Part shown: positions 42,162 to 52,319 of the stretch, in pieces | Layout: each line of letters opens with the position of its first letter | Numbering within the stretch: the stretch's first letter is position 1 | Assembly (NCBI RefSeq): GCF_006740685.1 | Contig: NZ_CP035425.1 | Location: 1,155,687-1,219,686, forward strand | From: Candidatus Nitrosopumilus sp. SW | Lineage (GTDB): Archaea > Thermoproteota > Nitrososphaeria > Nitrososphaerales > Nitrosopumilaceae | Length of the DNA stretch: 64,000 nucleotides | Direction of reading: 5' to 3' | The notes under the pieces: model-generated | The model's input: the letters and a program-made list of their open reading frames with translations, nothing else | Told to the model about the DNA's origin: nothing | The model's database searches: none | Made by a program: the position numbers and the translations under genes

Positions 42162-43199
42162 TTACATTTTGGGATCTAGACCTTTGGCTAACCTTAATGC
42201 ATCTACTAACCCATCTGCATATCCAATACTTAGGATGGCAACCTCGTCTTGACCGTCTTCTAAAAATTTCTCTGCATCTTTGACATACAATTCTGCATTT
42301 TCTAAAATCACTTGGTATTCTTTTTGATCCTTGTAATATGGTTCAACCTCTTCAAGTGCTTCTCTTACCATTGGAACGTATTTTTCAATCATCTGAGAAG
42401 AAATCTTTCTTGTTTTCTCTGCATTATCAAATGGCTCATCAATACATTCTCCTAAAACCTTCAATGCGTCTGATTCTGTAAAATGCAGCCTTCCTGGAAT
42501 TATCACTGTATGTGGAGGTTTTCCAAAATCTATCTTTTTTAGGCTAGAAATTTTACCTGATACTATCTTTTGGTCTTTGAATCCTACTCTTGATGCAACA
42601 ATGGCAAACGTTGATGAACTGATAACTTTTCTTCTCTGGCCTTTTTCAGTTTCTAATAATCCATTCAATGCATCCTTGGGGTCTAAAAAGAAATCTTTGT
42701 CTTGATTAAACTCTAAAAGAAGTACGGTATGATTCCCTTCTATTACATTTTTGTAAATTACATAGTATGGTGTTGTAAGTGATTTCATCTCGCTCATTAT
42801 GGTTGCAATTCTTCCAACTTTGTAAAAATGCAGACCGCACTCTCCAATCATTGAGGTTAATGATGAAGATGCATGAATAGAATATGTCTTTATTTTTTCT
42901 TTAATTGCTCTTTCACGTAACTCGATATGTGTTGTAGCAATGTATGGGTCTCCATACGATAACAAGACAACTTTCTTTTTCTTTGCATTTTCTAAAATCT
43001 CATTTCCATCTTCAACTAACCATCTTTTTGCTGGTCTGAACTCTCCTTTTGTTGCGTTTTTAATTTTAGTTAGATCTGATTTGCCAATGGGACTTGTGAA
43101 CTGTTCTAGATATACAATATCTGCTTTTGCTAAAACATCAATTGCCTCATTAGGAATTGATTTGAATCCTGAAATTCCTAAACCTACAAACCAGAGCAT
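42162..43199 (-). CDS. dphB: Diphthine synthase fused to a DUF357 domain
   Basis: DphB methylates the modified His of elongation factor 2 in diphthamide synthesis. The N-terminal part begins MLWFVGLGISGFKSIPNEA and has the SAM tetrapyrrole-methylase fold with VVLLSYGDPYIATTH and YSIHASS. It is 345 aa, about 80 more than usual. The extra C-terminal part (about 265-345) contains AELYVKDAEKFLEDGQDEV and YADGLVDALRLAKGLDP, which match the DUF357 pattern. DUF357 is normally a separate archaeal protein. The fusion may link it to DphB function. Confidence 0.9.
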   Translation of the reverse strand: MLWFVGLGISGFKSIPNEAIDVLAKADIVYLEQFTSPIGKSDLTKIKNATKGEFRPAKRWLVEDGNEILENAKKKKVVLLSYGDPYIATTHIELRERAIKEKIKTYSIHASSSLTSMIGECGLHFYKVGRIATIMSEMKSLTTPYYVIYKNVIEGNHTVLLLEFNQDKDFFLDPKDALNGLLETEKGQRRKVISSSTFAIVASRVGFKDQKIVSGKISSLKKIDFGKPPHTVIIPGRLHFTESDALKVLGECIDEPFDNAEKTRKISSQMIEKYVPMVREALEEVEPYYKDQKEYQVILENAELYVKDAEKFLEDGQDEVAILSIGYADGLVDALRLAKGLDPKM

Positions 43200-44326
43200 T
43201 ACTGCATATTTCTATCATGAAGTCTTTTTAAATGCTGTAGCATCTTCTTGAGAATTTCTATTCCTCTAAGGTACTCGTCAATTGAAACTTTTTCATCAAT
43301 AGTGTGAGCTTCGTGAGGGTCCCCTGGGCCATACGTTACAACTGGGATATTCCATTGTGTACCCAACACATTCATGTCTCCTGTACCTGTTTTTCTGATT
43401 AGCTTAGGTCTAGAATGTTCTACATCCATAACTCCCAAAGTAAATGCACGCACTAATGGAGAGTTATGTGCTGCCTCAAATGGTTCTGTTTCATCAAGAA
43501 TTGAGTAGAATGCCTCCACATCTCTTTTTTCTGCAATTTCTTTAACTAAATTTGCAATCTTTTGTTCAATAGATTTGCAGTTCATATCAACTGGAATTCT
43601 GATATCAAAAGTTGTTTCACATTCTTTTGGAGTAACATTGTGACTTGTCCCTCCTTTTACTTCTGTCATAGTTGCAGTCAATAACATTCCCTTTGTTCTA
43701 TTCTCTTGATTTTCTTCTAGTTTTTCTTTTAATTCTCTTGCAAAAATCATTGATTCTAAAATTGCATTTTTTGAGAGCCATGGTGCACTTGCATGTGAAC
43801 TATCCTCTACGCTTATCTTGAGATTTATCGCTAATCGTCCTTTGTATGCAATTGTTACTTGTTTAATTCCACTTGGTTCTCCAAAAACTGCATAATCTAC
43901 ATCCATCTCTTTTTTAACTAGATTTTTGATTCCTGTTGCATTTCCTTCCTCATCAACTGCACCAACAAAAATTATTGTTCCGTTGTTGTTTTGTATTGAT
44001 GCTGCAGCAAATAACATAGCCATTAAAGGTGCTTTTGCATCTGATGCACCTCTACCGTAAAGTGAATCTCCTTCTTTTCTTACCTTTACTTTACCTGGAA
44101 CTACATCCATGTGACCACATAACATTATTTTTGGTGAACCTGAACCTTTTCGTGCAATCATATTTCCGACTTCATCAATTTGAATATCTTCAAATCCTAA
44201 ATCGTCACATTTGTCTGCAAGAAATTCTGCCATTGGTTTTTCACTAAGAGATGGTGTGTACAATCTAAGTGCTTTCTCAAGCATTTTTGTTGCAAATCTT
44301 GGTGTAACCGTAAAGTGAGTGTCCAA
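43199..44326 (-). CDS. lysK: [LysW]-lysine/[LysW]-ornithine hydrolase (M20 peptidase)
   Basis: LysK releases lysine or ornithine from the C-terminus of the carrier protein LysW. The 375-aa M20 peptidase has MLCGHMDVVPG (HxD), GRGASDAKAPLMAML, VGAVDEEGNATG (DEE) and, near the end, HEAHTIDEKV (His ligand). It closes the hcs-lysW-lysX-lysK unit, starting three bases after lysX. Only one such gene is in the window, so it probably serves both lysine and arginine branches. The dapE/argE relatives are alternatives, but context supports LysK. Confidence 0.9.
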   Translation of the reverse strand: MDTHFTVTPRFATKMLEKALRLYTPSLSEKPMAEFLADKCDDLGFEDIQIDEVGNMIARKGSGSPKIMLCGHMDVVPGKVKVRKEGDSLYGRGASDAKAPLMAMLFAAASIQNNNGTIIFVGAVDEEGNATGIKNLVKKEMDVDYAVFGEPSGIKQVTIAYKGRLAINLKISVEDSSHASAPWLSKNAILESMIFARELKEKLEENQENRTKGMLLTATMTEVKGGTSHNVTPKECETTFDIRIPVDMNCKSIEQKIANLVKEIAEKRDVEAFYSILDETEPFEAAHNSPLVRAFTLGVMDVEHSRPKLIRKTGTGDMNVLGTQWNIPVVTYGPGDPHEAHTIDEKVSIDEYLRGIEILKKMLQHLKRLHDRNMQ

Positions 44327-44329
44327 TTC

Positions 44330-45172
44330 TTACTTGTCTATCTTAAGTGCATAATCTAACATTAGCGAAGGAATATCTACTTCACACACTCTAACTGTGT
44401 TTTTGTATTCCGTTGTATTGTTTACTTCGTGAACAACCAATCCTTTCTCTTCGCTTTCCATCAAATCTACACCTACGATATCTCCTTGAACTGCATTTTT
44501 TGCCTTAATACACATTTCTTCCATTTCTTGTGTTACCTTGCATGGTTCTGCCACTCCTCCAAGTGCCATGTTTGTCTTCCAGTGCTCAGAGTTGCGGTAA
44601 ATTGCTGCAACAATTTTGTCTCCAACCATAATTGCTCTGATGTCTCTAGGTGGTCTTTTTACAAACTCTTCTAGATAATGAACTTGATAAATTGGATACA
44701 TGTTCTCTCTACTTTCAATAATTCCTTCAGCAGAATCTTTGTCATTTAATTTTGAGATTAGTCTGCCCCAACTCCCAACTGTTGGTTTGATCACTTTTGG
44801 ATATCCTTGTAACTCTAATGCTTCTAGGGCTGCATCTTTTGAAAATGCAACTGTTGCATCTGGTGTTGGAACTCCTGCCTTCTTTAACAACATATGTGTG
44901 AATAATTTGTTTCCTGCAAAGATTCCTGTATTAAGACAATTGATTACTTTGACTCCTAATCCTTCAAGAGCTGCTGTTGAATGCAAATTTCTGTAATAGC
45001 TTACACATCTTTGTATGACTACTCCATAATCTTCAGGTTTTTTTTCTAAATCTATTGCTAATTTCTTACAATCAACCATCTGGATGTTGATGTCCTTTTT
45101 CTTACCTGCTTCTAGTAGGCCTTTTTCTTCCCAACGGATGGTATCATAAAGAATCGTAACGTCGGGACTCAC
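44330..45172 (-). CDS. lysX: [LysW]-2-aminoadipate ligase LysX (RimK-like ATP-grasp)
   Basis: LysX couples 2-aminoadipate to the LysW carrier by an ATP-driven amide bond, the committed protection step of lysine synthesis. The protein has KPTVGSWGRLISKL, YYLEEFVKRPPRDIRAIMVG-like strands and a C-terminal HEVNNTTEYKNTVRV. The EYKN and following VDIP resemble the MEFKN...VDIP of bacterial LysX rather than ArgX. I start it at GTG 45172, whose GTGA overlaps the lysW stop; a TTG at 45181 is the alternative. It is next to homocitrate synthase, which supports the lysine assignment. Confidence 0.85.
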   Translation of the reverse strand: MSPDVTILYDTIRWEEKGLLEAGKKKDINIQMVDCKKLAIDLEKKPEDYGVVIQRCVSYYRNLHSTAALEGLGVKVINCLNTGIFAGNKLFTHMLLKKAGVPTPDATVAFSKDAALEALELQGYPKVIKPTVGSWGRLISKLNDKDSAEGIIESRENMYPIYQVHYLEEFVKRPPRDIRAIMVGDKIVAAIYRNSEHWKTNMALGGVAEPCKVTQEMEEMCIKAKNAVQGDIVGVDLMESEEKGLVVHEVNNTTEYKNTVRVCEVDIPSLMLDYALKIDK

Positions 45173-45336
45173 TGTCCCCAATCCTCGCCAACCGTTTGGG
45201 CAGGCTTTAGATCGAAACCGTCTGAACCTTTTGCTAATTCAAAACTTGCGCCACATTCCGGACATGTTACAATTTCTCCTTCAAGTGCATCACTTGGTAT
45301 GGAAATTTCTGCATCACATTCTTCACATTTTGACAT
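45169..45336 (-). CDS. lysW: LysW-type amino-group carrier ending in Gln (lysine branch)
   Basis: A 55-aa acidic zinc-ribbon protein: CEECDAEISIPSDALEGE, then CPECGASFEL, then the conserved EDWG end. In characterised LysW the last residue is Glu, whose side chain carries the amino acid. Here the final codon is CAG (Gln), read directly before TGA. The zinc-ribbon core and the TVGEDWG tail are otherwise intact. It is upstream of lysX with a four-base overlap. See findings. Confidence 0.9.
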   Translation of the reverse strand: MSKCEECDAEISIPSDALEGEIVTCPECGASFELAKGSDGFDLKPAQTVGEDWGQ

Positions 45337-45357: not shown

Positions 45358-46539
45358 CTATTTATCGTTAATTATTTTTTCAAGTCTGTCTTCAAGAGGA
45401 ATTTCGATCAGATCTCCCATTCTTAGACCTTTTAATCCAGCTGCGACTGCTTTTGCACTCTCATCATCTTTTTCTAATCCTAATAGTGACATCAAATAGG
45501 CAGCTCCTGTCTTTCCTGCCAGTTCTCCAAATACAATTCTTCTTCTATTTCCTACTGCTCTAGGTGGTATGGGCTCATATGCTGCAGGATTTCTTAGTAT
45601 TGCTGCAAGATGTGTTCCTGCTTTGTGTTTGTATGCTGAGGACCCAACTATTGGCTTTGAATCATATGGTTTGATTGAAGTATATTCTTCAATCAATCTA
45701 GATAAATCCAACAACATGTCTAATCTGAAATCATTTGGTGATTTGTACAAATATGTTAAAGCAACTGCAACTTCTGCAAGTGGAGGAATTCCTGTTCTTT
45801 CACCAATTCCATCAATTGTAGTATGAATCTGATCAACTCCTGCATCACATGCAGAAAATGCGTTAGCTACTGCAAATCCAATATCATTGTGGACATGTGC
45901 ATCTAATGGAACGTCTATGGAATCTCTTACTTTTTTAACGAAATTATACATTCCAATTGGACGCAATATTCCTACAGTATCTGGTAAACTTATTCTATCG
46001 ACACCTGCTTCTTCTATTGCTTTACAAACTTTGAGTAAAAATTCTGGCTCTGCTCTACTTCCATCTTCTACTGTAAATCTAATTTTTAATCCGTGTGACT
46101 TTGCATACTCTACAGTTTCAACGGCTCGCTCAAGTGCATCTTCTCTTGAAATACGAAGTTTATCTTTAAGATGAATATCTGAAATTCCTAGATATGCTGC
46201 ACACCATTTTGCATCGCAATCTAATGAAACATCAATGTCTTCTTTGAGAGCACGTCCATGAGAAACAATGTCTGCTTTTAGTCCTTGCTTGATGATTGTC
46301 TTTGTTGCCTCTTTGTGATCACCTGATACAACTGGTGAAATTTCAATTTGGTCTACCCCAAAATAATCTAACATCCATGCAATTTGGATTCTTTGTTTAT
46401 TTGTAAATGAAACACCTGGATGTTGTTCTCCTTCTCTTAGAGTGCTGTCTAGTACTCTGATCTTCTTTGGATTCTTTTCATATGCATTGTACAGGTTTGC
46501 ATAGTGATTCGGATCTTTCATTACAGAATTCGTTGACAT
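45358..46539 (-). CDS. hcs: Homocitrate synthase
   Basis: It condenses 2-oxoglutarate and acetyl-CoA to homocitrate, the first step of lysine synthesis via 2-aminoadipate. The 393-aa protein has RVLDSTLREGEQHPGVSF at its start, the DAHVHNDIGFAVANA metal-binding region and GIGERTGIPPLAEV. The HHND and GERTG sequences group it with homocitrate/2-isopropylmalate synthases. Adjacent lysW and lysX make homocitrate synthase the better choice. It has its own TATA-like box (about 46549-46561, minus strand). Confidence 0.88.
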   Translation of the reverse strand: MSTNSVMKDPNHYANLYNAYEKNPKKIRVLDSTLREGEQHPGVSFTNKQRIQIAWMLDYFGVDQIEISPVVSGDHKEATKTIIKQGLKADIVSHGRALKEDIDVSLDCDAKWCAAYLGISDIHLKDKLRISREDALERAVETVEYAKSHGLKIRFTVEDGSRAEPEFLLKVCKAIEEAGVDRISLPDTVGILRPIGMYNFVKKVRDSIDVPLDAHVHNDIGFAVANAFSACDAGVDQIHTTIDGIGERTGIPPLAEVAVALTYLYKSPNDFRLDMLLDLSRLIEEYTSIKPYDSKPIVGSSAYKHKAGTHLAAILRNPAAYEPIPPRAVGNRRRIVFGELAGKTGAAYLMSLLGLEKDDESAKAVAAGLKGLRMGDLIEIPLEDRLEKIINDK

Positions 46540-46623: not shown

Positions 46624-46638
46624 AACCGAAAGTCGGTT
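46624..46638 (-). terminator. Hairpin after the Lrp-type gene
   Basis: AACCGA-AAG-TCGGTT forms a 6-bp stem immediately after the regulator's stop codon (minus strand), followed by A/T-rich sequence AAAAATTTT. It may end the argG-to-Lrp transcript before hcs. Confidence 0.4.
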
Positions 46639-47057
46639 TAGATAACTTTTCTTAAAATAATCACAGTGTTAGTATCTACTACACCTGGAATCTTTCTTAA
46701 TGCATCAATACTGTTGTTAATTTCTGCAATACTTGATGCACTCATAATTGTTGTAATGTCGTATTGACCTGTTATTTCATAAACTGTTTTTACCCCATCA
46801 AGTTTTGCAAGTTTTAATGAAACTTTTGATGTATCTGTTGCAGAATCTACTGATACTAGAACAATTGCACTAGTTGCATTTTCTTCTCCTAATTCCAAAG
46901 TAAATTTTTTGATAGTCCCATTTCCTATGAGATTCTTAACACGTCTTCGTACTGCTGATTCTGATAGTTTTAGTTTTTTCCCAATATCTACAAATGATTC
47001 CCTTGAATCTTCTTTCAGATACCCTATAATTTTTTCATCTATGTTATCCTTGTACAT
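46638..47057 (-). CDS. Lrp/AsnC-type regulator (LysM-like)
   Basis: A 139-aa protein with an N-terminal HTH (VDIGKKLKLSESAVRRRVKNL) and a C-terminal RAM domain (YEITGQYDITTIMSASSIAEI). It overlaps the aminotransferase gene by 14 bases at its start. Position inside the lysine/arginine block suggests that it senses lysine or arginine and controls the block, as LysM does in Sulfolobus. Target and ligand are inferred. Confidence 0.88.
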   Translation of the reverse strand: MYKDNIDEKIIGYLKEDSRESFVDIGKKLKLSESAVRRRVKNLIGNGTIKKFTLELGEENATSAIVLVSVDSATDTSKVSLKLAKLDGVKTVYEITGQYDITTIMSASSIAEINNSIDALRKIPGVVDTNTVIILRKVI

Positions 47058-48231
47058 CCCGTTTTTGCTCCTCTTCTGTTAGTATTATATCTAGAGCATG
47101 TAAAACTTTTGTTACATCTTCTTCAGTAATCACTAATGGGGGCAAAATTCTAAGAATATTTCTTCCAGAATACAACATAAGAACACCTTCTCTGATTAAT
47201 CCCATCAAAATATCTCTGACTTCAAACTTCATTTCTACACCTATCATGAGTCCCTTGCCACGAATTTCTCTAATCATGTTGTGTTTTTCTTTTAATTTCT
47301 CCAAGCCTTCTCTGAAAAGTTTTCCCATCTTTTCTGAATTCTCAATTAATCCGTCTTCTGTAATTGATTTTAGTGCTGCAATCCCTGCTGCACATGATAT
47401 TGGATTTCCTCCAAAAGTTGAAGAATGTTCTCCCTTGCTCATAGAAGCTAAAATGTCTGGTCTTACGAGAGTTGCACCCATTGGAACTCCTCCTGCAATT
47501 CCTTTTGCTAAACACAAAATATCTGGTGCTGTGTTCCAATGATCACAAGCCCATAATCGTCCTGTTCTACCTAAACCTGCTTGTATTTCGTCAAAGATTA
47601 ACAGAATTCCTTTTTCATCACAAAGCTTTCTTACATCTTGCAAGAAACCGTCTGGTGCAACATTAATTCCGCTTTCTCCTTGAATTGGTTCTAAAATCAC
47701 AAATGCTGTGTCCTCATCAATTACTTCGCGTAGTGATTCAATATCGCCATATGATGCAAATGAAACTTTTTCCACTAGTGGAGCAAATGCCTTTTTGTAT
47801 TTTGGATTAAATGTTAATGATAATGCGCCAAATGATTTTCCGTGATAGGATCCTTTCATTGCGACCATTCCTTTCTTGCCTGTGAATTTTCTTGCAAACT
47901 TTATTGCAGCTTCAATTGCTTCTGCACCACTATTGTTGAGATGAACTTGTGTTAATCCTTCAGGAGCTAAACCAATTAATGTTTTCAAAAATTCTTCTCT
48001 TGTTTTGTTGTAAAGTGAACTATGTACTGTTATGATTTTGTCAATTTGTTCTTTTATTGCATTGTTAACTCTTTGATTTTGGTGCCCTACTAATGCTACA
48101 CCGTATCCTCCCATACAATCAATGTACTCTTTACCATCGATATCCCAAACATGAGATCCTTTTCCTTTTTCTATTGTAACTGGAAATCTCTGATAGAGAT
48201 TGCCCATGTACTGGTCTTCACTCATGTTCAA
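47044..48231 (-). CDS. lysJ: [LysW]-aminoadipate semialdehyde/glutamate semialdehyde aminotransferase
   Basis: A class III PLP aminotransferase of 395 aa. The PLP Lys is in LCLAKGIAGGVPMGA, with LIFDEIQAGLGRTG and FGGNPISCAAG also typical of the ArgD/LysJ family. Here it would act on the semialdehyde of LysW-bound aminoadipate or glutamate. A single copy in the window suggests both branches use it. It follows LysZ with a 14-base overlap. Confidence 0.9.
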   Translation of the reverse strand: MNMSEDQYMGNLYQRFPVTIEKGKGSHVWDIDGKEYIDCMGGYGVALVGHQNQRVNNAIKEQIDKIITVHSSLYNKTREEFLKTLIGLAPEGLTQVHLNNSGAEAIEAAIKFARKFTGKKGMVAMKGSYHGKSFGALSLTFNPKYKKAFAPLVEKVSFASYGDIESLREVIDEDTAFVILEPIQGESGINVAPDGFLQDVRKLCDEKGILLIFDEIQAGLGRTGRLWACDHWNTAPDILCLAKGIAGGVPMGATLVRPDILASMSKGEHSSTFGGNPISCAAGIAALKSITEDGLIENSEKMGKLFREGLEKLKEKHNMIREIRGKGLMIGVEMKFEVRDILMGLIREGVLMLYSGRNILRILPPLVITEEDVTKVLHALDIILTEEEQKRDVQG

Positions 48232-49021
48232 TCACCGTACAATTATCATGTGCAATGGCTGATGAAATAGGATTTTCTTTTTGACCATTTGCAATTAATG
48301 CTGTTTTCACTCCCATATCTAATGCCTCAGTTGATGCTAAAATCTTCTTTTCCATTCCTGGTCCAATCTTTGGTCTAATTTCTTTTGCTTCTGCTAATGT
48401 AAGTTTTGGAACCACTTTGTCATCCATTAAGAGTCCGTCTACATTTGTTATGAATAATACTTTGTCACTTCCAACTTTTCCTGCAACATACGCTGCTGCC
48501 CTATCCCCGTCTACATTGAGAAATTCTGATTCTTCGCTAATTGCAATGGGCGAAATTACAGGTGTAAGACCTTGTTCTAGGAGTGATTTGATGAATGTAG
48601 AGTTGACTTCTCTGATTTTTCCAGTATATCCTCCATCAATTGCTTGTTTTCTGCCCTTTTCATTTACGATGAGAAGCTTCTTTTTTCTATCAGCTTCAAT
48701 AACTCTGGCATCCACACCTGATAATCCAATTGCATTAATGCCATTTTTTTGGAGCATCTGAACAATTGTTTTGTTGATTCTGCCTGACATTACCATTGTA
48801 AAAATTTCTGCAGTTTCTTTGTCAGTGTATCTACTTTTGATTCCGCTAGGAGATGTTACAAACTTTGGTTCTTTTCCAAGTTGTTCACAAACTTTGGTAA
48901 CTTCTTTACCTCCACCATGAACCAGAATTACTCCTTCTGATTCTGCAACTTTTTTGATATCTGTAATTGTTGATGGATGTAAATCGTCTACTACACTTCC
49001 ACCGATTTTGATAGTGATCAT
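48218..49021 (-). CDS. lysZ: [LysW]-aminoadipate/glutamate kinase
   Basis: A 267-aa amino acid kinase: TIKIGGSVVDDLHPS, VHGGGKEVTKVCEQLG and VDGDRAAAYVAGKVG. It phosphorylates the side-chain carboxyl of the LysW-bound amino acid. The ArgB family shares this fold; context supports the LysW-dependent version. It is overlapped at its 3' end by LysJ and lies two bases after LysY. Confidence 0.9.
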   Translation of the reverse strand: MITIKIGGSVVDDLHPSTITDIKKVAESEGVILVHGGGKEVTKVCEQLGKEPKFVTSPSGIKSRYTDKETAEIFTMVMSGRINKTIVQMLQKNGINAIGLSGVDARVIEADRKKKLLIVNEKGRKQAIDGGYTGKIREVNSTFIKSLLEQGLTPVISPIAISEESEFLNVDGDRAAAYVAGKVGSDKVLFITNVDGLLMDDKVVPKLTLAEAKEIRPKIGPGMEKKILASTEALDMGVKTALIANGQKENPISSAIAHDNCTVIEHE

Positions 49022-49023
49022 TT

Positions 49024-50070
49024 CTAAACAGGTGTTAGTGGTGTGTATCTTAATCCATCCATTTCATCAAAACCGCACATTACGTTCATGTTTTGGATGG
49101 CAGAACCTGCTGCACCTTTCATCAAGTTATCTGATGCAGATAATGCAATTAATCTATTGTTGTCTTCGTCTAAATCAAATCCTATATCACAAAAGTTTGA
49201 ACCGACCAAGAATTTTGGATCAGGGAATTTGTATAATCCTTTTTTGTCTCGAATCAATCTAACAAATTTCTCTTCACCATAAGTTTGACGATATAATTTC
49301 CACAACTCTTTTTCTTCGATGTCTTTTTTCATGAATGTGTGGTTTGTACAAAGAATTCCACGAACAACATCTACTGCATGTGGACTCATCGAAACATGAA
49401 TTTTCTTTCCTGCAATCTCACTTAGCTCTTGTTCAATCTCACCAGTGTGTCTGTGTTTTGCTGGTTTGTATGGTCTGATAACTCCTGCTCTCATTGCATG
49501 TGCAGTTCCTGAACCCGAACCTGCACCTGAAGAACCAATTTTTGAATCTACAACAATGTGGTCAGTATCAATAATGTCATTTCTAATTAATGGTGCAAGT
49601 GCTAGCATTGATGTTACTGCCATACATCCTGGACATGAAACAAGTTGTGCTTTTTTGATATCTTCTCTGTGTAATTCTGGCACACCAAAAACTGATTTAG
49701 CTAAATAATCTGGATGTGGATGTTCCCAACCATACCACTTGTCATATGCTTCTTGATCGTGCAATCTGTAATCTGCACTCAAATCGATGATTTTCACACC
49801 TCTGTCATACAATGCTTTTACAATTTCAGTGGCAGTTCCATGTGGCACTGCTGTGAAAACTAAATCACACTTGTCAGTTAATTTATCATAATCTAATTCT
49901 GAGAAAGTCAGATCGGTAAAACCCTTCAAACTTGGTTGAACTCTATGTAGATACTCCCCTACATGTTGTCTTGATGTGACCATTGTGATCTCAACATCTG
50001 GGTGATTGACCAAAAGACGGAGTGTCTCTCCACCTACATATCCTGATGCTCCTACAACACCTACTTTCAT
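49024..50070 (-). CDS. lysY: [LysW]-aminoadipyl/glutamyl phosphate reductase
   Basis: A 348-aa ArgC-like reductase. The N-terminal VGASGYVGGETLRLLVNHP binds NADPH, and the catalytic Cys is in SCPGCMAVTSMLALAPL. It converts the acyl phosphate on LysW to a semialdehyde. Downstream of argX and upstream of lysZ, within the operon order argG-lysW-argX-lysY-lysZ-lysJ. It likely serves both pathways. Confidence 0.92.
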   Translation of the reverse strand: MKVGVVGASGYVGGETLRLLVNHPDVEITMVTSRQHVGEYLHRVQPSLKGFTDLTFSELDYDKLTDKCDLVFTAVPHGTATEIVKALYDRGVKIIDLSADYRLHDQEAYDKWYGWEHPHPDYLAKSVFGVPELHREDIKKAQLVSCPGCMAVTSMLALAPLIRNDIIDTDHIVVDSKIGSSGAGSGSGTAHAMRAGVIRPYKPAKHRHTGEIEQELSEIAGKKIHVSMSPHAVDVVRGILCTNHTFMKKDIEEKELWKLYRQTYGEEKFVRLIRDKKGLYKFPDPKFLVGSNFCDIGFDLDEDNNRLIALSASDNLMKGAAGSAIQNMNVMCGFDEMDGLRYTPLTPV

Positions 50071-50098: not shown

Positions 50099-50956
50099 TT
50101 ATTTCCTAATGTAGTTTAGAGCGAATTCTACCATTTCTTTTGGTATATTTCGTTGTGCAACTCTTGCCAATCCCTTGAATTCTACTGTATTGTTGACTTC
50201 GTGAACCACCAGGCCATTCTTTTCATCTTCCATCATGTCTATTCCTAGAATTCCTCCTCCCATTGCCTTTGATGCTTTTGCTGCCATGTCTTCCATCTCT
50301 TTTGTGATCTCACATAATTCTGGATCGGCACCAAGTGCAATGTTTGTCTTAAATCCTCCTGAGGACTTTCTGTACATTGCTGCAACAGGCTCATCTCCTA
50401 CGGTGATGACTCGAATGTCTCTAGGTGGTCTTTCTACTAGTTCTTGTAGGTAGTATATTCTGTCATGTGGACTATCTGTAATGTCTCTGATTTCTGAAAT
50501 TGCATCCATTGTATCTTTATCTTTAATTGGCATTACTCCTCTTCCCCAACTACCAATTACTGGTTTGATTACTAGTGGGTATCCTACTTTCTCTAAATTC
50601 TCAGACGCACTTTCACTTGTAAATGAAAAATATGTTTTTGGTGTTGGTACTCCGGCTTTTTTCAAAAGCAATGTCATGAACATTTTGTTTCCACAAATAC
50701 TTGCAACATCAAATTTGTTTAGAACAGGAATGTCCATAAATTCAAGACTCGCAGTAAAATGCAGTCCTCTAAAATAACTTACACATCTTTCTAAAACAAC
50801 ATCTCCCAAATCAAAATCTTCTCTCTTACTATCTGTATTGACTTGAGTAATTTTTGCATCTAGCATCACTATATCATGTCCTAGTTCAGCTGCTTCTTTT
50901 TGAAGCATCTTCTCTTCCGCTCTTAGGCGATCAAACACAATACAGACTTTTGACAT
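50099..50956 (-). CDS. argX: [LysW]-glutamate ligase ArgX (LysX paralogue)
   Basis: A 285-aa RimK-like ligase and paralogue of the 44.3 kb gene. Motifs: KPVIGSWGRGVMPIKDK, YYLQELVERPPRDIRVI, and a C-terminal HEVNNTVEFKGLARV. The EFKG in place of EYKN, and the position after argG and a normal LysW, suggest the glutamate-specific member (ArgX), which starts arginine synthesis. Its ATG overlaps the lysW stop as TAATG. Assigning ArgX versus LysX is inference from context and one motif. Confidence 0.82.
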   Translation of the reverse strand: MSKVCIVFDRLRAEEKMLQKEAAELGHDIVMLDAKITQVNTDSKREDFDLGDVVLERCVSYFRGLHFTASLEFMDIPVLNKFDVASICGNKMFMTLLLKKAGVPTPKTYFSFTSESASENLEKVGYPLVIKPVIGSWGRGVMPIKDKDTMDAISEIRDITDSPHDRIYYLQELVERPPRDIRVITVGDEPVAAMYRKSSGGFKTNIALGADPELCEITKEMEDMAAKASKAMGGGILGIDMMEDEKNGLVVHEVNNTVEFKGLARVAQRNIPKEMVEFALNYIRK

Positions 50957-51123
50957 TACTCTCCCCAGTCTTCGCCTACGCTTTCTGCTTGTTTAAGCTC
51001 AACATTTGATCCGTCTTTTTTTGCGATTTCAAAGTCAGCACCACAATCAGGACAGGAGACAATTTCTCCTACTGCGGCATCATCTGGGATGTTTAGTGTT
51101 GCGTCACATTCTGGGCAGTTCAT
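50956..51123 (-). CDS. lysW: LysW amino-group carrier ending in Glu (arginine branch)
   Basis: A 55-aa acidic zinc-ribbon protein: CPECDATLNIPDDAAVGE, then CPDCGADFEI, ending VGEDWGE. The last Glu is the attachment residue used by characterised LysW. The ATG overlaps the argG stop (ATGA) and its stop overlaps the argX start, so argG, lysW and argX are translated together. It is about 60 percent identical by eye to the Gln-ending paralogue at 45.2 kb. Confidence 0.92.
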   Translation of the reverse strand: MNCPECDATLNIPDDAAVGEIVSCPDCGADFEIAKKDGSNVELKQAESVGEDWGE

Positions 51124-52319
51124 GTTTTTTCTGACCTTTTCTTTTGTAATTTATTAGCTTCTGTTGATTGCATTCCCCACAATTCTACAAATCCTTTGGC
51201 CAATCTTTGGTCAAATGTGGATTCTGTACCATATGTGGCAATTTCATGACTGTAAAGTGAATTATTTGATTTTCTTCCAACTACTCTTAGACTTCCTTTG
51301 TACAGTTTTAGCTTGACTGTGCCTGAAACTGGCTTTTGAGATGCTTCGATAAACCCATCTAAATCTGATTTTAGTGGGTCTTGCCATAATCCTGAATATG
51401 CTAGGTATGCCCATTCATCATCAATTATTGACTTGAACTTGTTTTCGTGTTTTGTATGAACCATCTTTTCTAAATCTGAATGTGCTTCAATTAAACAAGT
51501 TGCAGCTGGTGTCTCATAGACTTCACGAGATTTTATTCCAACAACTCTATCTTCAATATGATCAACAATTCCCACTCCAGCATTTCCTGCCTTTTTGTTG
51601 ATGTATTCAATTAATTTTTGGCCATCCATTGTTTTGCCATCAACCCCAACTGGAATTCCTTTTGCAAATTTAATTTCCAAGTATGTTGGTTTGTCTGGCA
51701 AATTTTTTGTTTTTACCCAAATGAATGCATCATCAGGAGGTTCATTGTATGGGTCTTCTAATACACCACCTTCAATTGCACGGCCCCACAAGTTTTGATC
51801 AATACTGAATTTTTTTGCTACGGTATCAATTTCAATTCCGTGTTTTTTTGCAAACTTTAATTCTGTAACTCTATCCAAGTTCTTGTCACGAATTGGTGCA
51901 ATGATTGGAAGATTAGAACCAGAACGCAAAGTAATGTCAAAACGTACTTGATCATTTCCTTTTCCAGAACAACCATGTGCTAGGGATGTGACTTTTTCTT
52001 TTTTTGCAATCTCTAAAACTTTTTCAGCAATTAGTGGTCTTGCAAGAGCTGTTGCTAAACAATATTTTTTTTGATAAAGTGCATTTGCTTTAATTGATGG
52101 AAAAATGTAATCTTTGACAAACTCTTTTCTTGCATCTATGTTGTAGTGTTTTTTTACTCCTAATTTTTTTGCCTTTGCTGCAATTTTTTTATTATCTTCC
52201 CCTTGTCCAACATCAACTGTAACTGTGACAACATCCATGTCATGTTCATCTTGTAGATACTTTACAACAACTGAAGTGTCTAGTCCTCCAGAAAATGCAA
52301 GAATTCCTTTTTGAGTCAT
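51120..52319 (-). CDS. argG: Argininosuccinate synthase
   Basis: ArgG joins citrulline and aspartate with ATP, the penultimate step of arginine synthesis. The 399-aa protein begins KGILAFSGGLDTSVVVKYL, the PP-loop motif SGGLDTS, and has YCLATALARPLIAEK and HGCSGKGNDQVRFD. It is the first gene of the arginine half of the block. Its overlap with lysW supports arginine as the product of the following ligase. Confidence 0.96.
   Translation of the reverse strand: MTQKGILAFSGGLDTSVVVKYLQDEHDMDVVTVTVDVGQGEDNKKIAAKAKKLGVKKHYNIDARKEFVKDYIFPSIKANALYQKKYCLATALARPLIAEKVLEIAKKEKVTSLAHGCSGKGNDQVRFDITLRSGSNLPIIAPIRDKNLDRVTELKFAKKHGIEIDTVAKKFSIDQNLWGRAIEGGVLEDPYNEPPDDAFIWVKTKNLPDKPTYLEIKFAKGIPVGVDGKTMDGQKLIEYINKKAGNAGVGIVDHIEDRVVGIKSREVYETPAATCLIEAHSDLEKMVHTKHENKFKSIIDDEWAYLAYSGLWQDPLKSDLDGFIEASQKPVSGTVKLKLYKGSLRVVGRKSNNSLYSHEIATYGTESTFDQRLAKGFVELWGMQSTEANKLQKKRSEKT

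Follow-up and report, generated by a model that had tools for sequence, protein, structure and literature searches.

LysW carriers encoded with a terminal glutamine, a conserved and recurrent variant in ammonia-oxidising archaea and beyond

The lysine carrier LysW of Candidatus Nitrosopumilus sp. SW is encoded with glutamine as its last residue, at the position where the characterised LysW and ArgW proteins have the glutamate whose gamma-carboxyl is charged. Judged from gene sequences and their distribution over many genomes, the Gln-ended LysW departs from a known carrier in a way that is real, conserved and recurrent, and its existence implies a maturation or charging step that has not been described. 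We found no published account of a Gln-ended LysW in the open-access literature, subscription journals lying outside that search. The reading that we favour, and that we hold to be reasonably probable, is that this protein is a working lysine carrier made as a pro-form, the Gln of which would be deamidated to Glu before the carrier is first used.

The Gln-ended carrier and its gene cluster

The gene, LysW1, lies at 45169-45336 of the window (the whole stretch of 64,000 nucleotides that was analysed), where a first reading of the DNA letters, the sequence-only reading, had correctly placed it; it is on the minus strand. Translated from 45336 to 45169 it gives a zinc-ribbon protein of 55 amino acids, MSKCEECDAEISIPSDALEGEIVTCPECGASFELAKGSDGFDLKPAQTVGEDWGQ, whose terminal codon CAG, for Gln, stands at 45174-45172 and is followed by TGA. 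The C-terminal peptide, as encoded in the window, is GSDGFDLKPAQTVGEDWGQ. In the PDB, the LysW of S. tokodaii, of T. thermophilus and of T. kodakarensis each end in EDWGE.

By every other measure that we applied to an archaeal protein of this kind, LysW1 is a LysW. It scores 88.2 bits against the NCBIfam archaeal LysW/ArgW model NF041070 (cut-off 75) and 47.2 bits against Pfam PF21344 (cut-off 27), it has the four zinc-ligand cysteines (CEEC...CPEC, that is, CxxC...CxxC) and the EDWG tail, and it sits in a cluster with the cognate ligase, kinase, reductase, aminotransferase and hydrolase. The bacterial equivalog TIGR01206 is missed, with 32.8 where 53.2 is required, and the Glu-ended paralogue misses it too, with 39.8. 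A zinc ribbon, an EDWG tail, a LysX-LysZ-LysY-LysJ-LysK cluster and a score above the NCBIfam cut-off are shared with the LysW and ArgW of Thermus, Sulfolobus, Thermococcus and Natrinema. What is missing is an encoded C-terminal Glu, since CAG is Gln, and so we file the protein as a variant. The paralogue, LysW2 (51123-50956, minus strand), has the tail ...VGEDWGE before its stop; it scores 93.0 bits against NF041070 (cut-off 75) and also passes PF21344. The translations thus bear out what had been noticed at the outset, that LysW1 keeps its zinc ribbon and EDWG tail and that the paralogue at 51 kb ends in Glu. The source genome, one contig of 1.50 Mb with a completeness of 99.5%, has exactly two LysW genes.

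LysW1 is flanked on one side by a member of the homocitrate/isopropylmalate synthase family, for the first step to alpha-aminoadipate (45358-46539; TIGR02146, 376 bits, below the cut-off of 413.55), and on the other by LysX1 and then LysK, all on the minus strand like the rest of the cluster. LysX1 (44330-45172; TIGR02144, 332 bits) is an ATP-grasp ligase with the tail-recognition motif GSWGR. It starts with a GTG that shares bases with the stop of lysW1 (GTGA), and the TTG at 45181, which is the start given in the list of open reading frames, is less likely. LysK (43199-44326; match to 5XOY with E of 7e-51) is an M20 metallo-amidohydrolase, the [LysW]-lysine hydrolase. Upstream of the synthase, and reaching to 52319, are the aminotransferase LysJ, a shared downstream enzyme (47044-48231; family models), the [LysW]-aminoadipate/[LysW]-glutamate kinase LysZ (48218-49021; family model), the reductase LysY (49024-50070), a second ATP-grasp ligase, ArgX (50099-50956; translation and family model), LysW2/ArgW with its EDWGE end (50956-51123) and the argininosuccinate synthase ArgG (51120-52319), which starts the arginine half and was named from its sequence and from its holding the same place in every related cluster. 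A search of the genome finds LysZ and LysY in single copy. An Lrp/AsnC-type regulator (46638-47057, minus strand) lies between the synthase and LysJ.

The specificity motif is NT in LysX1 and GL in ArgX; in Sulfolobus it is Asn-Thr in LysX and Gly-Phe in ArgX (PMC10433800). Thus the lysine (alpha-aminoadipate) carrier is the Gln-ended copy, and the one with Glu is the arginine (glutamate) carrier. LysW1 had already been called the lysine carrier from its neighbourhood, and the NT of the adjoining ligase agrees with that.

Conservation of the glutamine in the family

Can we be sure that the codon is real? The sequence-only reading had pointed to the CAG before TGA and proposed looking at the last residue of the orthologue elsewhere. 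We have done so, and it is Gln in 68 of the 69 high-quality genomes of the family (Nitrosopumilaceae), which confirms the codon; the pattern of Glu that would have told against it was not seen. In the sole exception, G147, both copies end in Glu. In a pattern match over 250 genomes of the family, the genomes listed mostly have one ...GGNCAGTGA (Gln) and one ...GGNGARTAR (Glu).

The Gln is not a by-product of the overlap with the start of lysX (CAGTGA) either. GAGTGA gives the same GTGA overlap, and G147, in which LysX1 is nearly identical to that of relatives partnered with Gln, retains it with Glu, so either residue is compatible with the overlap; moreover, Gln is also found before TAA and TAG stops. 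In one genome of 3.17 Mb (G005, L239:1600-1800) a very G+C-rich repeat stands upstream of lysX where lysW1 would be expected, and the gene is absent, either truly lost or missing through a fault of assembly.

Distribution of Gln and Glu ends

When the LysW genes of the class and the phylum are read together with their neighbours, both residues occur in both carriers. Most of the window's family has Gln on the lysine carrier and Glu on the arginine carrier; in one member (G018) the arginine carrier ends in Gln, and a Cenarchaeum relative (G244) has two Gln-ended copies. The lysine carrier of the Nitrosocaldus type (f2, g23) ends in Gln before TAA or TAG, and a sister genus (g31) has Glu on both carriers. 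Both carriers end in Gln in a putative Nitrososphaera type (g28), and the residues are swapped in genus g30, and likewise in G323, with Glu on the lysine carrier and Gln on the arginine carrier. The Nitrosocosmicus type (g24) has a single carrier, with Gln, and keeps both LysX and ArgX, the latter directly after argG. The remaining families of the order and the class that we examined have Glu ends throughout. Gln is therefore not confined to the lysine carrier, since there are Nitrososphaeraceae whose arginine carrier has it, the two residues being swapped in some of them.

Some genomes have no Glu-ended carrier at all. In the complete chromosomes of the Nitrosocosmicus type and the putative Nitrososphaera type, no LysW ends in anything but Gln. 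The complete chromosomes G293, G296 and G288 each have a single LysW above the family cut-off, which is Gln-ended, together with both LysX and ArgX; two further complete chromosomes (G303, G297) have two LysW, both with Gln; and in G398, G391 and G496 the only LysW ends in Gln. Relatives in culture need no supply of amino acids for growth. Since there are complete genomes with Gln-ended carriers only, the Gln form must work. In the three single-carrier chromosomes, which are of the Nitrosocosmicus type (L229, L230, L231), it is the arginine-side LysW that has been lost with both ligases kept, and the one Gln-ended carrier presumably serves the two.

Some bins call for care. Two loci labelled Nitrosopumilus (L285, L297) have Nitrosocosmicus-like lysW-lysX-lysK genes, and their bins are probably misnamed or contaminated. 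A 4.9 Mb genome (G384; L206, L207, L208) has two gene sets that differ in residue pattern; it is probably a mixed bin.

The variant also reaches beyond the ammonia oxidisers. In four other families of Thermoproteota (f29, f34, f51, f54) LysX adjoins a Gln-ended LysW, accompanied, except in f51, by further genes of the pathway. A scan of 84,980 species for GEDWGQ followed by TAR matched 66 contigs, of which 8 are chance matches and not LysW, and added Jordarchaeia, Undinarchaeota and one Thiotrichaceae bacterium. An EDWGQ-type match in G411 is not LysW, and two loci (L254, L292) were not scored as LysW solely because a contig edge cuts the gene. Taken together, these lineages dispose of the idea that Gln is confined to ammonia oxidisers. 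They also make the framing of the sequence-only reading, which dealt with one paralogue, too narrow: the arginine carrier toggles as well, some genera show the reverse pattern, and the variant extends to other archaea and a bacterium.

In three Undinarchaeota genomes and in the Thiotrichaceae genome the sole LysW is Gln-ended, and the M20 proteins of these genomes all fall below the LysK cut-off. The Thiotrichaceae locus (L289), which is gammaproteobacterial, has a LysW (Gln)-LysX-LysY-LysZ-LysJ cluster, and no LysK above the family cut-off was found in that genome.

Two residues and an unchanged ligase

Among 203 distinct LysW-ligase pairs, 119 carriers end in EDWGQ and 84 in EDWGE, with nothing else, although the set is biased in that part of it was retrieved with EDWG[QE] patterns. 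The LysW found by protein search alone agree with it, having Gln or Glu ends only. In 250 genomes, a search for GEDWG followed by a final codon in which the second base is anything but A, which leaves out the codons for Asp, Asn, Lys, His and Tyr, found no LysW; its lone match, of EDWGV type in G336, lies in another, membrane-type ORF. CAG, CAA, GAG and GAA are all in use, and in the wider set all three stops occur. The use of both CAG and CAA, and of all three stops, indicates that it is the residue that is kept and not the DNA. Mapped onto a tree built from 111 LysX/ArgX proteins, the last residue of the partner changes at least 10 times, a lower bound because the Glu-ended neighbours of the deepest Gln lineages are not in the tree.

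Is there a ligase adapted to Gln? No column of LysX/ArgX follows the Gln or Glu state of the partner, the best one scoring 3.2 out of the 6 independent pairs that well-supported branches provide; with only 6 such pairs, a weak covariation could escape. GSWGR and the other strongly conserved positions of the ligase are the same in the Gln and Glu groups.

The downstream enzymes constrain the linkage. In the genomes tested, where Gln-ended and Glu-ended carriers coexist, LysZ and LysY are each present once; that a single kinase and a single reductase act on the conjugates of both carriers argues for the same gamma-linkage on both. The restriction to Gln and Glu argues, in addition, for use of the side-chain carbonyl. 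The known LysW conjugates are gamma-linked, and in the haloarchaeon Natrinema gari J7-2 the ArgW mutant E54A, in which the terminal Glu becomes Ala, is an arginine auxotroph (PMC10433800), so the terminal side chain matters. From these comparisons, the finished linkage on the Gln-encoded carrier is probably the usual gamma-glutamyl one.

Deamidation and its alternatives

We infer a deamidation step, which would work as follows. LysW1 would be translated with its C-terminal Gln as an inert pro-form, and the Gln would be converted to Glu, once per molecule. LysX would then charge the gamma-carboxyl of that Glu with alpha-aminoadipate; LysZ, LysY and LysJ would turn the carrier-bound aminoadipate into lysine; and LysK would free the lysine, restoring the Glu end of the carrier. 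Because LysK leaves Glu after one round, no molecule would need deamidation twice. Such a step would explain three points, namely the unchanged ligase, the single LysZ and LysY, and the occurrence of Gln and Glu only. Deamidation was one of the options offered by the sequence-only reading, and with the conservation of the residue, the unchanged ligase and the shared LysZ and LysY it has become the leading one.

Which enzyme would do it? Our guess, to which we give moderate weight, is LysK, because LysK hydrolyses the gamma-glutamyl amide of LysW, and the side-chain amide of Gln is that very bond with ammonia in the place of lysine. It is the most economical candidate. The metal and catalytic residues of the LysK in the window (H72, D74, D96, E126, E127, E150 and H341) are conserved, also in a set drawn from both Gln and Glu lineages, and in most lineages a LysK with intact catalytic residues clusters with the Gln-ended LysW. 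On the other hand, LysK recognises the released lysine, as seen in the T. thermophilus structure, so that ammonia may be a poor leaving group; and the Undinarchaeota and Thiotrichaceae, with M20 proteins below the LysK cut-off, would have to rely on another amidase or on no amidase at all. As far as the sequences go, any mechanism under which Gln and Glu become equivalent fits just as well.

There is a known system with a similar logic. Pup is a small carrier that ends in Gln in some species and in Glu in others and forms an isopeptide bond through its side-chain carboxyl, and Dop both deamidates PupQ and cuts the isopeptide bond of Pup, that is, depupylates (PMC8599861). The encoded end of LysW likewise varies between Gln and Glu from species to species, with no further residue found. 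The likeness is one of logic: Pup tags proteins for degradation whereas LysW carries amino acids, and Dop has a glutamine-synthetase fold, unrelated to the M20 metal hydrolase LysK, the candidate deamidase here. We suggest, tentatively, that the Pup/Dop logic may have arisen twice from unrelated parts, with Gln pro-form carriers switched on by LysK, the very enzyme that unloads lysine or ornithine. By making Gln and Glu interchangeable, LysK would then have let the encoded residue toggle often across archaea and one bacterium.

Alternatively, LysX and ArgX could charge Gln directly by phosphorylating its amide oxygen, with the amino acid displacing ammonia, and would do so in the first round only, as LysK leaves Glu. 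Such chemistry would account for the interchange of Gln and Glu with an unchanged ligase, would make an extra enzyme unnecessary, in keeping with the lineages that lack LysK, and resembles a proposal made for Dop, in which the amide oxygen of PupQ attacks ATP (PMC8599861). We consider it unlikely, because an amide makes neither a good nucleophile nor a good acyl donor, and we know of no LysX/RimK-family ligase that charges one.

A somewhat more doubtful alternative is that the amino acid is attached to the alpha-carboxyl of the terminal residue, in the way RimK acts on ribosomal protein S6, and that the side chain is irrelevant. LysX and ArgX do belong to the same ATP-grasp family as the RimK alpha-L-glutamate ligases (TIGR00768), and the interchange of Gln and Glu would be neutral. 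However, RimK adds glutamate to an alpha-carboxyl, whereas the characterised LysX and ArgX act on the gamma-carboxyl of LysW, and the known conjugates have the gamma-linkage (PMC10433800). Other end residues would also be expected, and none was found; and the same LysZ and LysY would have to handle, in the same cell, a Glu-ended carrier whose geometry would differ if its own conjugate is gamma-linked.

Low-level misincorporation of Glu at the Gln codon could also supply enough Glu-ended carrier, the encoded Gln being merely tolerated. Archaea make Gln-tRNA by amidating Glu-tRNA, the use of the carrier is catalytic, so that a minor fraction could suffice, and no dedicated enzyme would be necessary. 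Yet elongation factors normally reject misacylated tRNA, and most of the carrier would be left inactive although Gln-only genomes persist, which makes this very improbable.

Finally, the sequencing or assembly error and the non-functional decoy raised by the sequence-only reading have practically no chance left: apart from CAG and GAG being one base apart nothing favours an error, which is ruled out by Gln in the 68 of 69 family genomes, in independent assemblies and many genera, hundreds of genomes in all, just as a decoy is ruled out by the complete genomes whose sole carriers end in Gln.

Implications

Ammonia-oxidising archaea are abundant in oceans and soils, and whole genera of them have no carrier that encodes a terminal Glu. 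Automatic annotation calls their Gln-ended proteins LysW and leaves the difference unmarked. The difference would mean either that the biosynthesis of lysine and arginine includes a maturation step which has so far escaped notice, or that LysX has an unexpected chemistry.
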